Source: Candidatus Doudnabacteria bacterium
GTDB taxonomy: Bacteria > Patescibacteriota > Doudnabacteria > UBA920 > O2-02-FULL-48-8
Length of the DNA: 37,628 nucleotides
Direction: 5' to 3'
Assembly (NCBI GenBank): GCA_016199215.1
Contig: JACQHB010000004.1
Coordinates: forward strand, 1 to 37,628
Below, piece after piece: positions 1,175 through 34,608 of this stretch. The position numbers and the translations under genes are program-made. Each line of letters starts with the position of its first letter. Within the stretch, counting starts at the first letter, position 1. Under the pieces are notes generated by a model, which saw nothing but the letters and a program-made list of their open reading frames with translations, ran no database searches and had not been told where the DNA came from.

Positions 1175-1200
1175 TCCACCATAGCTTTAGCGAAGGTGGA
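1175..1200. repeat. Palindromic repeat, TTCGCTAAAGC family
   Basis: TCCACCATAGCTTTAGCGAAGGTGGA; same core as 4620-4645 and 17495-17520. Confidence 0.7.
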
Positions 1201-1262
1201 CAGCCCCCCATTTGGGGTTGGTTTCTTAAAAAGGCTGATCATTAATTACCGTCAATCGGCCA

Positions 1263-1298
1263 CCCGATCATTCGATCGGGCCCGGTCGAATGACCGGG
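1263..1298. repeat. Two abutting perfect 7-bp hairpins
   Basis: CCCGATC-ATTC-GATCGGG followed directly by CCCGGTC-GAAT-GACCGGG. Confidence 0.7.
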
Positions 1299-1339
1299 TA
1301 ATTAGCAAAAATTTATTTGTTCCATTCCTGGAACGCTTA

Positions 1340-1481
1340 CCCCGTATATCAACTTCGATAATGGTCGGGGTTAGCTTTTGCTTACTGCTGTAGCCTGTGT
1401 ATCCGTTTTAGTATTTTTAATCTTGAAGCTTTTGTGTATTCGACCATTGAATTGCAAAAGCATCGAAGTTGTATTACGGGG
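1340..1481. mobile_element. MITE-like element C (142 bp, 20-bp imperfect TIR, 4-bp direct repeat CTTA)
   Basis: CTTA|CCCCGTATATCAACTTCGAT ... ATCGAAGTTGTATTACGGGG|CTTA; no ORF. Confidence 0.6.
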
Positions 1482-1482
1482 C

Positions 1483-2415
1483 TTACTGTGATTCCGCGGA
1501 AGTAGGAGAATCGACCAAGGTAATTTCTAAGGCGAAAGTCTTGTTGTCTTTAGTCTGTCCTCTGACGCTCACGACCAAATCAATTTTAAGCTCATCCGCC
1601 TTGATATTCACATATGAGGTATCGGAAGATAGATAGAATTTTACCGCGCCGATAGAGATTGACGTATCAGAAACCGCGGTAAGCTTGCCCGTTGCCGTCA
1701 CTTCATCCAGGTTGATTGGGTTATCACTTTCAACCTGCAAGCCGGCCCTTTCGATATTTTGTAATGCTTCTTCCTTGCTGATTTTGGTAACCTCGACTGC
1801 TTTTTCCAGTTCGAGTCTGACTTCTCCTTCTGTATTGATTGAAGCGGTCTGCAGTTTAGTATTTAAATCTTTAAGTTTGTTAACAAGAGCTGCCTTTGGT
1901 TTTGGAGATGAGGCGGCGGCTGTTGCGGTTTTTTGCAGATCTTTCACGGTTTCGGCCACGATTTTTTGGGTTTCTTCATTTGAAAGCCTGCCTTCTTCGT
2001 TCTGCTCCAAAATTTTCTCCAATTCCATAACACGATTTTCCGCGAACTTCAATTGTAAATTGGCCTTCTTTGATTCGTCCCTTGTGAGTTTAAGTTCGAT
2101 ATTTTCAACAATTCTTTTGAGTGGATAGATTGTCTGTCCGGGGCTGCTTTGAAGCGCGGCGATTGCCGTGCCCATTGCCAGGCTTACCAAAATCAACCCA
2201 GTTCCTATAAGGCCGGCTGTTATTCTTAATGTTCTGAAAGACCCTATGAAGTATGAAGCAAACCTTTGTTCTTTTTCTGGTTCTGCCACACGCGAGATTT
2301 TATCCATAATTTTGCTTCGAAGAATAGCAAAATCCGGCAAATCAAGCCTTGCCTTAGGCACCAAACTAAGTTTCTGGATTATTTCCTCGTCAGTTAATTT
2401 ATTGGATTTAATCAT
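1483..2415 (-). CDS. DUF5667-like membrane protein, putative anti-sigma partner
   Basis: 310 aa; one TM segment, then SSPGQTIYPLKRIVENIELKLTRDESKKANLQLKFAENRVMELE; overlaps the sigma gene by 4 nt. Confidence 0.75.
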   Translation of the reverse strand: MIKSNKLTDEEIIQKLSLVPKARLDLPDFAILRSKIMDKISRVAEPEKEQRFASYFIGSFRTLRITAGLIGTGLILVSLAMGTAIAALQSSPGQTIYPLKRIVENIELKLTRDESKKANLQLKFAENRVMELEKILEQNEEGRLSNEETQKIVAETVKDLQKTATAAASSPKPKAALVNKLKDLNTKLQTASINTEGEVRLELEKAVEVTKISKEEALQNIERAGLQVESDNPINLDEVTATGKLTAVSDTSISIGAVKFYLSSDTSYVNIKADELKIDLVVSVRGQTKDNKTFALEITLVDSPTSAESQ

Positions 2416-22964: not shown

Positions 22965-23083
22965 GCTCGGCACAAGTTGAAAAAATTATCGGTCGTCGTC
23001 TCGCTAACGCTCGACGCGACCTGCGTTCTCGGCCGGATGTTGCCGGCCTGCGAAGGCTAATTTTTTGCAACCTGTGCCTCGCT
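22965..23083 (+). repeat. Three-way-junction repeat, copy 1
   Basis: GCTCGGCACAAGTTGAAAAAATTATCGGTCG ... CGACCTGCG ... CTGCGAAGGCTAATTTTTTGCAACCTGTGCCTCGCT. Confidence 0.8.
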
Positions 23084-23099: not shown

Positions 23100-23927
23100 A
23101 TGAGCTTTTTTGAAAATGAAAAGATCCAGGAATGGCTGATTGTCCTAAACGACAATTTGCGCACCACGAAAAAAATTTGGGTTTATATTTTGGCCGCGGT
23201 TTTGGTTTTGGCCATTCCTCTGGCTTTCGGTTTCAAGGCGCTGTTCTTCAAATTGACGTTTAAGAATTATTCAGGTCCGGCAGTAAACCAGCCAATGGTG
23301 AAAATCGAGCCTTTGCAGATTTTGGAAAAAAAAGTTTTAAAGCTAAGCAACAACAATTATTCGGGATTTATCAGGTTGAAAAACATGAATTTGGATTGGG
23401 GAATGCCGGAGCAGACCTATACTGCTATTTTTAAAACTTTAGGCGGAACCACCGCGGCCACGGTATCTGGAAAAACATTTATTCTGCCGGCATCGGAAAA
23501 GTTGATTGTTTTTTCTAAATTTTCAAGTCAGCAGGAGCCACAGGTTTTGGATTTTTCTCTGGGGGAGGCAAAATTCCTCCTCAAGCCCGAAATGCCTCCA
23601 ATTGAGCTTTCCGTCAGCAGGGTGGAACTCGCCAATAAAAGTTCGGAGTTGACGGTTGGCGCCGCGGTCTTCAACAAATCGCCGTTTAGACTAAGCGCGG
23701 TGCATCTTTACGCGTTGGTATATGATAAGAATAATGAAATAATCGCGGTAAATTCCACCAGCGTCAATGACGTAAATTCTTTGGAAACCCGTTCATTCCA
23801 AATGTATTGGCCAAAAACAATGCCAGACGCGGCCAGGGCTGAGATTCGGTCGGAAGTGAATATTTTTGACCGGGCTTTGTTCTCGACCCAGCCAGGGAGG
23901 TCCCAATTTGAAACTGACCCAGATTAA
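23100..23927 (+). CDS. Hypothetical single-TM protein
   Basis: 275 aa; one N-terminal TM, extracytoplasmic domain. Confidence 0.8.
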   Translation: MSFFENEKIQEWLIVLNDNLRTTKKIWVYILAAVLVLAIPLAFGFKALFFKLTFKNYSGPAVNQPMVKIEPLQILEKKVLKLSNNNYSGFIRLKNMNLDWGMPEQTYTAIFKTLGGTTAATVSGKTFILPASEKLIVFSKFSSQQEPQVLDFSLGEAKFLLKPEMPPIELSVSRVELANKSSELTVGAAVFNKSPFRLSAVHLYALVYDKNNEIIAVNSTSVNDVNSLETRSFQMYWPKTMPDAARAEIRSEVNIFDRALFSTQPGRSQFETDPD

Positions 23928-25408: not shown

Positions 25409-25422
25409 TTAGCGCCTCTTTA

Positions 25423-25489
25423 CCCCGTTAGAAATCCGATGCTTTTTTTGGCATAGGCAGCCGGACTTGATGGCTTATTTCTAACGGGG
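25423..25489. mobile_element. MITE-like element R2 (67 bp, direct repeat TTTA)
   Basis: TTTA|CCCCGTTAGAAAT ... ATTTCTAACGGGG|TTTA. Confidence 0.7.
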
Positions 25490-25530
25490 TTTACAAAATA
25501 GCACGAAAGTGCTATTTTATTATGGCTATG

Positions 25531-25667
25531 CCAGGTACTGAAAATTTGACCCGCAATATGTTTTTTAAGCAAGAAGCCTTAGTCAAAAACATATTGCGCT
25601 ATAATTTTCGGCCAGGCATAAGGTCCATCTAGATGGCCGAAAATTAAGTCAAATTTCTAGTACCTGG
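25531..25667. mobile_element. MITE-like element B (137 bp, 19-bp TIR, direct repeat TATG)
   Basis: TATG|CCAGGTACTGAAAATTTGA ... TCAAATTTCTAGTACCTGG|TATG. Confidence 0.8.
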
Positions 25668-25668
25668 T

Positions 25669-26349
25669 ATGCAAATCACCCTCACAGCTGCAAAAAGAAC
25701 TATTTTAGGCAAGTCTGTTTCCAAGCTTCGAAAATCCGAAAAGCTTCCGGCTGTTGTTTACGGCCATGGTTTGGAAACGCTTCCTTTGGAAGTGGACGAG
25801 AAAGAATTCCGCAAGGCTTTTAAATCCGCGGGGGAAAACACAATTGTCTCCCTGCACCTTGACGGCAGGCAGATCCCGGTGATCATCCATGACGTCCAGA
25901 TGCATTATTTGAAAGACCACCCGATTCACGTGGACTTCTACGCGGTAAGGATGGATGAGAAGCTAAAGGCGGATATTCCAGTTCGATTTGTGGGCGAATC
26001 AGCCGCGGTTAAAGCGATGGGCGGAGTATTGGTTAAAAATCTTTCGGAAATTGAGGTTGAATGTCTCCCCTCAGACCTGCCTCAATACTTTGAAGTGGAT
26101 ATTTCTTTTCTTAATACTTTTGAAGACTCGATCAGAGTCTCTGACTTGAAAGTGCCGGAAGGGGTCAAGGTGCTTGCGCCCGCGGAAGAGTTGATAGCGA
26201 ACGTGGCAGCGCCAAGGACAGAAGAAGAACTGAAGGCTTTGGAAACTGAAGTCAAAGAGGACGTGGCTTCAGTGGAAGGCGTAATCAAGCCTGAAACGGA
26301 AGTTAAGGGTGAAGCCGAGGCGGAGGAGGCCGAGAAAAAACAAGAGTAA
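25669..26349 (+). CDS. rplY: Ribosomal protein bL25 (CTC family)
   Basis: 226 aa; TILGKSVSKLRKSEKLPAVVYGHGLE ... HPIHVDFYAVRMDEK. Confidence 0.95.
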   Translation: MQITLTAAKRTILGKSVSKLRKSEKLPAVVYGHGLETLPLEVDEKEFRKAFKSAGENTIVSLHLDGRQIPVIIHDVQMHYLKDHPIHVDFYAVRMDEKLKADIPVRFVGESAAVKAMGGVLVKNLSEIEVECLPSDLPQYFEVDISFLNTFEDSIRVSDLKVPEGVKVLAPAEELIANVAAPRTEEELKALETEVKEDVASVEGVIKPETEVKGEAEAEEAEKKQE

Positions 26350-32528: not shown

Positions 32529-33113
32529 ATGCAAATAACTTCAGAAGACGTAAAAAAATTAAGAGAGGCCACCGGAGCCGGCATGATGGATGCCAAGAAT
32601 GCGCTTGAAGAAGCCGGAAGCTTTGAGGGGGCCGTGACACTGCTTCGAAAGAAAGGCCATGCCGCGGTTGCAAAGAAATCGGAAAGAGTTGCTCACGAAG
32701 GCTTAATCGCATCTTATATCCATGCCGGCGGAAAAGTCGGAGTGCTTGTGGAGCTTAACTGCGAAACAGATTTTGTGGCCCGCAACGAGGAATTTGGGCG
32801 GTTGGCCAATGAGCTTGCTTTGCACATCGCCGCGGCTTCTCCAGTGTTTGTAAGAAGGGAAGAAGTTCCCGCTGACCTTATTGAGAATGAGAAGCAGATT
32901 TACAAGGAGCAGGTCAAGGGCAAGCCGGAAAACATGATCGAGCAGATTGTGAACGGAAAATTGGAAAAATATTTCGAGCAGGCCTGTCTCCTTGACCAGC
33001 CTTATGTGCGGGATCCGGAGAAAAAAGTCAAAGATTTGATTGCAGAAAGCGTGGGCAAGCTGGGAGAAAATATCCAAGTCAGAAGGTTTGTTAAATTCAC
33101 CCTGGGAAATTAA
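32529..33113 (+). CDS. tsf: Elongation factor Ts
   Basis: ITSEDVKKLREATGAGMMDAKNALEEAG ... LVELNCETDFVARNEEF. Confidence 0.97.
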   Translation: MQITSEDVKKLREATGAGMMDAKNALEEAGSFEGAVTLLRKKGHAAVAKKSERVAHEGLIASYIHAGGKVGVLVELNCETDFVARNEEFGRLANELALHIAAASPVFVRREEVPADLIENEKQIYKEQVKGKPENMIEQIVNGKLEKYFEQACLLDQPYVRDPEKKVKDLIAESVGKLGENIQVRRFVKFTLGN

Positions 33114-33931
33114 TGCACCTTTTTCTTTGGTTGGTTTTAATTTTTTCCGCCGCGGGCATTGCCGCATTTTTCCTGTCCAAAATCCCTGAAGTGGCCGGGC
33201 GGCCTGTCAAAGTGACTATCTCCGGACACGAGAGTATGTTTTCCTATTTGGCTTTAAAGCTTAGGTTGATTGGCGCCAAGGCTTGGCATTTTATTCTGGA
33301 AGCCAAAGACTTAACTCCTCCGGTAAAAACGTCCATAACCAGCCAAATGGAGAAGGTTAGACAAGTCTTTAGAGTAAGAATAAGGCGTTCTGAACAAGAT
33401 CAGGAATGGATGCCGGAAGTCGCGGAAGTGGCGGAAAGCAATGAGAATATTTTTCTTTTGGCGATAAAAAAGAATCCAACGGACAAGTCGGCATATGAAG
33501 GATTGGGCCGATTGTATCTTCAGGAAAAAAATTTTACGGAAGCGGGGGAAATTTTCCGATATCTGGCAAAGATTGATCCGGATAAGGATACCAATCACTC
33601 GAATCTCGGTCTTATCCTGTATTCCTTGCAAAAATATCCCGAGGCTGTTGTTGAATATGAGAAGGCTCTTTCTATCAATGGCAAAATACCTGCCCGTTGG
33701 ATTAATCTTAGCCTTTGCTTTATCGCGTCAGGCGATTACGGAAAAGCGATAAGGGCAATCAACAATGCCATAAGCTTGGACGAGCGGAACATTAACTATT
33801 TAAACTTGCTTTCGGAGATTTATTTGAAGGCAGGGAACAAAATGCGAGCCGAAGAGGTCTTGGAGCAGATTTTGCAGCTTGAGCCGACAAACCGGATTAC
33901 AAGAGAAAAGCTAATGAGATTGAAAATATAG
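33113..33931 (+). CDS. TPR-repeat membrane-anchored protein
   Basis: N-terminal TM plus TPR motifs (AYEGLGRLYLQEKNFTEAGEIFRYLAKIDPD). Confidence 0.85.
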   Translation: MHLFLWLVLIFSAAGIAAFFLSKIPEVAGRPVKVTISGHESMFSYLALKLRLIGAKAWHFILEAKDLTPPVKTSITSQMEKVRQVFRVRIRRSEQDQEWMPEVAEVAESNENIFLLAIKKNPTDKSAYEGLGRLYLQEKNFTEAGEIFRYLAKIDPDKDTNHSNLGLILYSLQKYPEAVVEYEKALSINGKIPARWINLSLCFIASGDYGKAIRAINNAISLDERNINYLNLLSEIYLKAGNKMRAEEVLEQILQLEPTNRITREKLMRLKI

Positions 33932-34038
33932 CTCGGCTTCTGAGCAAAAATTACCGGTCGTCAAAATCTGCTGATTTTTGCGACCTGCTTGCTCGCGCCG
34001 TTGCGCTGCGCAGGCTAGTTTTTATCAGAAGCCTCGCT
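33931..34038 (+). repeat. Three-way-junction repeat, copy 2
   Basis: GCTCGGCTTCTGAGCAAAAATTACCGGTCG ... CGACCTGCTTGCTCG ... GCGCAGGCTAGTTTTTATCAGAAGCCTCGCT. Confidence 0.8.
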
Positions 34039-34079
34039 TGTTGAAAAAGAGGGAAAATTTTGCTAAAATAAGATACCTT

Positions 34080-34154
34080 GCCAGCATAGCTCAGTGGTAG
34101 AGCAACGCTTTTGTAAAGCGAAGGTCGGGGGTTCAAATCCCTCTGCTGGCTCCA
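34080..34154 (+). tRNA. tRNA-Thr(TGT), CCA encoded, U73
   Basis: GCCAGCATAGCTCAGTGGTAGAGCAACGCTTTTGTAAAGCGAAGGTCGGGGGTTCAAATCCCTCTGCTGGCTCCA. Confidence 0.96.
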
Positions 34155-34161
34155 GAAATTA

Positions 34162-34286
34162 GCTCGTACGTTTACAAAAAACTACCGGCTGTCAAAAATT
34201 GCCATTGGAAAGACAATTTTTTGCAGCCTGCTTTCTCGGACGGATGAACCGTCCTGCGAAGGCTAGTTTTTTGTAAAGTACTCGCT
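34162..34286 (+). repeat. Three-way-junction repeat, copy 3
   Basis: GCTCGTACGTTTACAAAAAACTACCGGCTG ... CAGCCTGCTTTCTCGGACGGatgaaCCGTCCTGCGAAGGCTAGTTTTTTGTAAAGTACTCGCT. Confidence 0.8.
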
Positions 34287-34305
34287 TTAAAAAATTATGT
34301 AACGT

Positions 34306-34392
34306 GGGCAGATGGCAGAGCGGTCAAATGCACCTGACTGTAAATCAGGCGCCCTCGCGGCTACGCAGGTTCGAATCCTGCTCTGCCCACCA
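34306..34392 (+). tRNA. tRNA-Tyr(GTA), CCA encoded
   Basis: GGGCAGATGGCAGAGCGGTC ... CTGACTGTAAATCAG ... GTTCGAATCCTGCTCTGCCCACCA with long variable arm. Confidence 0.96.
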
Positions 34393-34442
34393 TAAAGAAT
34401 CCCGGAAAGGGGTTTTTTATTTGCAGGATTCGAACGGGTTGA
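34373..34442 (+). repeat. 70-bp direct repeat, copy 1 (tRNA-Tyr 3' end plus terminator)
   Basis: GAATCCTGCTCTGCCCACCATAAAGAATCCCGGAAAGGGGTTTTTTATTTGCAGGATTCGAACGGGTTGA. Confidence 0.95.
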
Positions 34443-34538: not shown

Positions 34539-34608
34539 GAATCCTGCTCTGCCCACCATAAAGAATCCCGGAAAGGGGTTTTTTATTTGCAGGATTCGAA
34601 CGGGTTGA
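34539..34608 (+). repeat. 70-bp direct repeat, copy 2
   Basis: Identical to 34373-34442, offset 166 bp. Confidence 0.95.

Follow-up and report, generated by a model that had tools for sequence, protein, structure and literature searches.

A CTCG-ended three-way-junction repeat of Candidatus Doudnabacteria, probably a miniature mobile DNA element

The reduced genomes of CPR bacteria are generally assumed to leave little room for non-coding DNA; nevertheless, a structured repeat is spread throughout one family of Candidatus Doudnabacteria. The window analysed here, a stretch of 37,628 nt from one such genome, contains three copies of it. A first-pass annotation of the letters alone had described copy 1 as a novel structured repeat, predicted to fold into a three-way junction with CTCG at both ends, and had taken the changes among the copies as a sign of selection on structure, either as RNA or as extruded single-stranded DNA. 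The question raised by this locus is which of the two forms has been kept, and what kind of element it belongs to.

On inspection, the sequence, coordinates, stems and terminal CTCG motifs of copy 1 were as annotated. The CTCG motifs lie at 22966-22969 and 23078-23081, and helix P1 and the hairpins P2 and P3 are found between them (Table 1). The minimum-energy RNA fold of copy 1 is a three-way junction (z -5.1; 0 of 200 shuffles). Folded as DNA, it gives the three-way junction on both strands, with z -5.2 for the given strand and -7.0 for the opposite one. The stems proposed earlier also stand, with one small correction: in copy 3, the G that opens what had been given as GTACGTTTAC belongs to CTCG.

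Table 1. Repeats of the window and the structural parts of copy 1.
Feature	Position	Strand	Description
Repeat copy 1	22965..23083	+	in the gap separating dnaE (-) from the divergent ORF at 23100 (+); 102.7 bits to the covariance model
P1, 5' side, copy 1	22965..22988	+	outer GC pair, CTCG with U/C mismatch loop, arm GCACAAGTTGAAAAAATTA; from fold and helices
P2 hairpin, copy 1	22991..23021	+	GGTCG...CGACC, bulged T (97% conserved), variable tip
P3 hairpin, copy 1	23023..23057	+	GCGTTCTCG-GCCGG...CCGGC-CTGCGAAGGC, T/C mismatch and bulged T
P1, 3' side, copy 1	23058..23082	+	TAATTTTTTGCAACCTGTGC with terminal CTCGC
Third palindrome	25418..25496	+	ACCCCGTTAGAAAT.../...ATTTCTAACGGGGT, encloses two hairpins; folds as a three-way junction, z -6.8
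Second repeat family, three-way-junction MITE	25527..25672	+	terminal inverted repeat CCAGGTACTGA..TAGTACCTGG, 4-bp target duplication (TATG here); z -11.8
Repeat copy 2	33930..34039	+	93 bits; preceded by a TPR gene (33113-33931) whose TAG stop overlaps the first bases; upstream of tRNA-Thr
Repeat copy 3	34161..34287	+	118 bits; between tRNA-Thr (34080-34154) and tRNA-Tyr (34306-34392)

Copies 1, 2 and 3 belong to one dispersed, non-coding family of elements of about 105-135 bp, referred to below as the CTCG repeat. The genome that carries the window (520 kb in 16 contigs, 79% complete) holds ten copies and a short deletion derivative on contig C10. The first-pass annotation had suggested a search of CPR genomes with a covariance model. 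Such a model, built from eight copies, has matches in each of the 14 genomes searched within the same GTDB family, with 1-15 copies per genome and 104 distinct copies, and in none of 84 genomes from other families of the order and phylum. A degenerate pattern run over 84,980 species gave 30 stretches, 28 of them in Candidatus Doudnabacteria; the matches in Xanthomonas and Anaeromyxobacter are due to chance and fail the covariance model. The repeat was not found in phage or plasmid collections by BLAST, and two viral pattern matches in IMG/VR likewise fail the model. The CTCG repeat is specific to one family of Candidatus Doudnabacteria.

Within this family, copies are more alike within than between genomes, and the nearest neighbour of a copy lies in the same genome for 54 of the 104 copies, against 10 after shuffling. 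Between close copies the outer arms diverge far more than the cores (0.47 vs <0.10). There are also type-B relatives (L253 and L254 in G013, L066 in G008), which share the shape and the ends and differ in their junction sequences (AAAAAAGACG..CTAAGTTCTCG or TGTTCG..TTCTTTTTTCG). Type-B elements sit in the same gaps where genome G002 has type A.

The compensatory stem changes noticed among the three copies extend to the whole family. In eight copies from the window's genome, 22 of 44 pairs have changed on both sides with pairing kept. Across the 104 copies from 14 genomes, double changes are seen in 41 of 44 pairs and 93.1% of cells are paired, compared with 70.3% after shuffling and 35-47% when the two sides are slid against each other; none of 500 shuffles reaches any of these measures. 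As the 104-copy alignment had been fitted to the model, covariation was assessed again on a MAFFT alignment made without regard to structure. There, 16 of the 20 top mutual-information column pairs (of 5,526) are pairs of the structure, and the remaining ones are register neighbours within P2. Thus, covariation, whose lack in a larger alignment had been named as grounds for giving up the structure, is present in both alignments, and the three-way junction is real. Apart from the helices, a set of unpaired pyrimidines is near-invariant: the T/C mismatch loop at the CTCG ends, a C at the junction, the bulged T of P2, and the T/C mismatch and bulged T of P3.

Helices selected as RNA tolerate G-U pairs and do not tolerate A-C. 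In the well-paired columns of the CTCG repeat, G-T mismatches (34) show no excess over A-C mismatches (52), and in P2 plus P3 the two are equal (23 vs 23). G-T accounts for about 1% of CTCG repeat pairs, vs 4.2% in 86 tRNAs from the same loci, where the pairs called by ARAGORN are standard pairs only and its zero A-C carries no information. Because G-T does not exceed A-C, it is reasoned that the structure is kept as DNA and not as a G-U-tolerant RNA, and the symmetry of the two mismatches suggests that inserted copies decay symmetrically as DNA. The evidence favours maintenance of the pairing at the DNA level. Of the earlier pair of options, selection on structure is upheld; its RNA half is disfavoured and its DNA half favoured by the mismatch counts and by the insertions described below. 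In a survey of the GTAG and CGTC repeats, the high frequency of G-T pairs was taken to speak for REPs acting at the RNA level (PMC3733652); the CTCG repeat is without such an excess. Covariation, usually taken as proof of RNA function, here appears to reflect DNA-level folding, and the repeat is a caution for the discovery of ncRNAs from metagenomes.

Comparison of orthologous sites bears on how the copies arose. At the site of copy 1, the same-genus genome G001 reads GTTATAATTAAAACACATATGAGC with the element absent, and six other genomes are empty too. The gap of copy 2 is empty in several relatives, and G013 has an independent insertion elsewhere in that gap. At the site of copy 3, the gap between tRNA-Thr and tRNA-Tyr measures 1-15 nt in six relatives, G004 has a terminator-like hairpin, and G005, G006 and G009 carry a different structured repeat (GGCGCAGCGWAGCGAGCAC ... 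GACCGYAGCACAAT..TTTGCGAAG; L211, L217 and L219), diverged in G009. Genus g2 provides a clean filled/empty pair at one site, and in its filled genome ATGGTATAAT follows directly after CTCGCTT. At two other g2 sites the sister genome has a diverged type-B element, once exactly flush with the same TGA stop. Copies are also nested in the P2 region of other copies, at its tip (L111, L080, L066). From the empty or differently occupied sites, together with the nested copies, it follows that CTCG elements are insertions; they are lineage-specific and have not come down vertically as RNA genes. The strong covariation and the energy z-scores would fit a structured ncRNA gene or riboswitch that stands alone and is passed on vertically. 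This reading is nevertheless very improbable in view of the lineage-specific insertion, the varied neighbouring genes, and the lack of an Rfam relative and of G-U tolerance. At the gathering threshold Rfam gives only tRNAs in the window, and with permissive filters nothing near the gathering score at the element; the description of the repeat as novel is supported.

The boundaries of the inserted unit are well defined. Conservation breaks off abruptly at CGCTCG on one side and at CTCGCT on the other; a target duplication was not detected at the boundaries and lengths tested. An A-rich 3' tail was considered as part of the unit and rejected, as ancestral sequence stands directly after CTCGCT in the clean empty/filled pair. 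A palindrome of ~98 bp (GACGGGTCCTGCCGTGGTTTTTACC..CCACGTCACCCGTC) is itself inserted inside CTCG elements of G002 and G013 (L256, L259, L255). Another candidate origin is a MITE that a conventional DDE transposase mobilises through its terminal inverted repeats, like the family at 25527-25672. Such a MITE would have terminal inverted arms, intergenic dispersal and no coding capacity, as the CTCG repeat does, and a true MITE with 4-bp duplications is present in the same genomes. The missing target duplication, however, and outer arms that vary with compensation instead of forming a fixed terminal repeat make this origin quite unlikely.

The copies are not spread evenly over intergenic DNA. Forty copies lie downstream of a same-strand ORF in a gap of 40 nt or more, and 21 of these have their 5' end -2 to +4 nt from the upstream stop codon, compared with 1.4 expected under uniform placement; ORFs were called by length only, which leaves downstream starts approximate and does not affect stop positions. 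Where the neighbour is a tRNA, on whichever side, the 5' end of the copy mostly lies at a distance of 4-8 nt. The scored copies are sense after the upstream gene in 66 cases vs 26. Placement flush with stops reflects either directed insertion or selective retention of such copies. Similar placement is known for REPs, the ends of which often supply stop codons (PMC3733652), and many of which lie within 15 nt of stop codons (PMC12306157).

It is this placement that a cis-acting RNA element of the 3' UTR would explain. Transcribed together with the upstream gene, such an element would by its structure stop 3' exonucleases or slow down termination, and selection for this effect would keep it flush with stops. 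The sense bias and the stop-flush position agree with such a role, as do probable terminators downstream of several copies and the stalling of ribosomes by E. coli REPs located within 15 nt of stop codons (as cited in PMC12306157). Nonetheless we consider it unlikely: there is no G-U excess, about a quarter of the copies lie antisense to the gene before them or on the 5' side of a tRNA, and the orthologous genes are mostly without the element.

The reading of the CTCG repeat as mobile DNA is well supported. In full, the best explanation, to which we assign a probability of about 0.6, is that the CTCG repeat is a REP- or MITE-like, non-autonomous miniature mobile element of new, three-way-junction architecture, moved in trans by a putative enzyme. 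The single-strand mechanism is one that we infer from three features: covariation at the DNA level, extrahelical bases that are conserved, and the lack of target duplication. Together they suggest that an enzyme reads a folded strand. One strand would fold into the three-way junction, with a long P1 capped by CTCG on both sides, P2, P3 and the unpaired pyrimidines. A trans-acting nuclease or recombinase would recognise this folded single strand with its extrahelical bases, cut at the CTCG ends and join the element next to gene ends, as in REP/RAYT or integron attC systems. Pairing would persist because only foldable copies move. Sense copies would become 3' UTR, with a possible secondary effect on translation termination or mRNA decay, as exerted by REPs.

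Several observations count against the mobile reading. No mobilising gene was found in the 14 family genomes, and no coding version, and neither excision nor a circular form has been observed. Y1_Tnp passes the cut-off in eight of the 14 genomes and falls below it in six, including G007, which has 15 copies. The only Y1 gene found in the window's genome (Y1_Tnp, 1180-1821, minus strand, L025, G000:C12) lies between palindromes of its own, GTGGAGGGCGCCCTCCAC, and the two together make up a separate RAYT-like system; a link of the CTCG repeat to an IS200/IS605 end, raised earlier as a possible identity, is thus not borne out. By coordinates, Y1 genes and CTCG elements do not adjoin in the other family genomes either. 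Owing to its patchy presence and its own palindromes, the Y1 transposase was rejected as the mobiliser. Half-element pattern searches did not find a coding or autonomous version: with few exceptions, the half matches are parts of whole elements. Those few comprise extended elements on G002:C4 and G002:C8, a P1-only mini copy at G000:C4:69774, one copy at the end of a contig, and a pair of isolated 5'-half matches; the member of this pair that was inspected (G007) is without the element structure. In addition, the divergence of arms relative to cores requires template switching or gene conversion beyond simple copying, and stop-codon placement could also reflect selection for 3' UTR function.

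Known systems resemble the CTCG repeat in part. REPs of the GTAG and CGTC families, associated with RAYT, are likewise palindromes scattered between genes, mostly on the downstream side, and also carry a conserved tetranucleotide tag. However, a REP is a single hairpin of 20-40 bp with an unpaired GTAG or CGTC tag at one end, whereas the CTCG repeat is a three-way junction of 105-135 bp (104 copies) whose consensus ends, CGCTCG and CTCGCT, place CTCG on both sides. RAYT genes are flanked by REPs, while none of the Y1 genes checked in the family genomes is flanked by the CTCG repeat. Bacterial MITEs of the ERIC, NEMIS and RUP type share its size, intergenic location, lack of genes and insertion beside coding sequences; the CTCG repeat differs in having no target duplication, arms that covary instead of fixed terminal repeats, and a three-way junction. 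Integron attC sites are imperfect palindromes of similar size directly after stops, with variable complementary arms and conserved extrahelical bases, and the CTCG repeat resembles them in these properties; attC sites also fold at the level of one strand, as is proposed for the CTCG repeat. In contrast to attC, it lacks the R boxes RYYYAAC...GTTRRRY and the GTT ends, its ends being GCTCGG...CCTCGC, and its neighbours are housekeeping genes and tRNAs, not cassettes. The RPE and CGTC repeats of Rickettsia, which likewise occupy reduced genomes, are dispersed palindromes that have no transposase dedicated to them (PMC3733652); the CTCG repeat differs from them in tag, size and shape. No earlier description of it was found in the literature searched, and it has a new architecture, outside every family tested.

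The three-way shape is not restricted to the CTCG repeat. The family at 25527-25672 (copies L263-L277) is repeated in G002 and G013, with some arm covariation. Its 4-bp target duplication is found in 8 of 14 copies (0 of 10,000 shuffles), which identifies it as a MITE of another kind than the CTCG repeat. Both in the window and in G013 (L255), the gene that follows takes its ATG from the 3' end of this MITE. The palindrome at 25418-25496 has no further copy among the fetched loci. The T shape therefore recurs in families with no evident sequence relation, through convergence, common descent or chance. These families (the CTCG repeat with type B, the 25527 family, the 25418 palindrome and the 98-bp palindrome) might form a class of miniature transposons read by shape, in which, for the CTCG family, a putative enzyme would read the folded single strand and place it at gene 3' ends. 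This proposal is speculative and rather unlikely. Since placement at stop codons is so precise and the shape recurs, the choice of target and the mobilising enzyme become questions that can be tested. One further repeat in the window, an exact 70-nt direct repeat (34373-34442 and 34539-34608, 166 nt apart), comprises the 3' end of tRNA-Tyr and a terminator, and resembles an attachment-site duplication or a tandem duplication.
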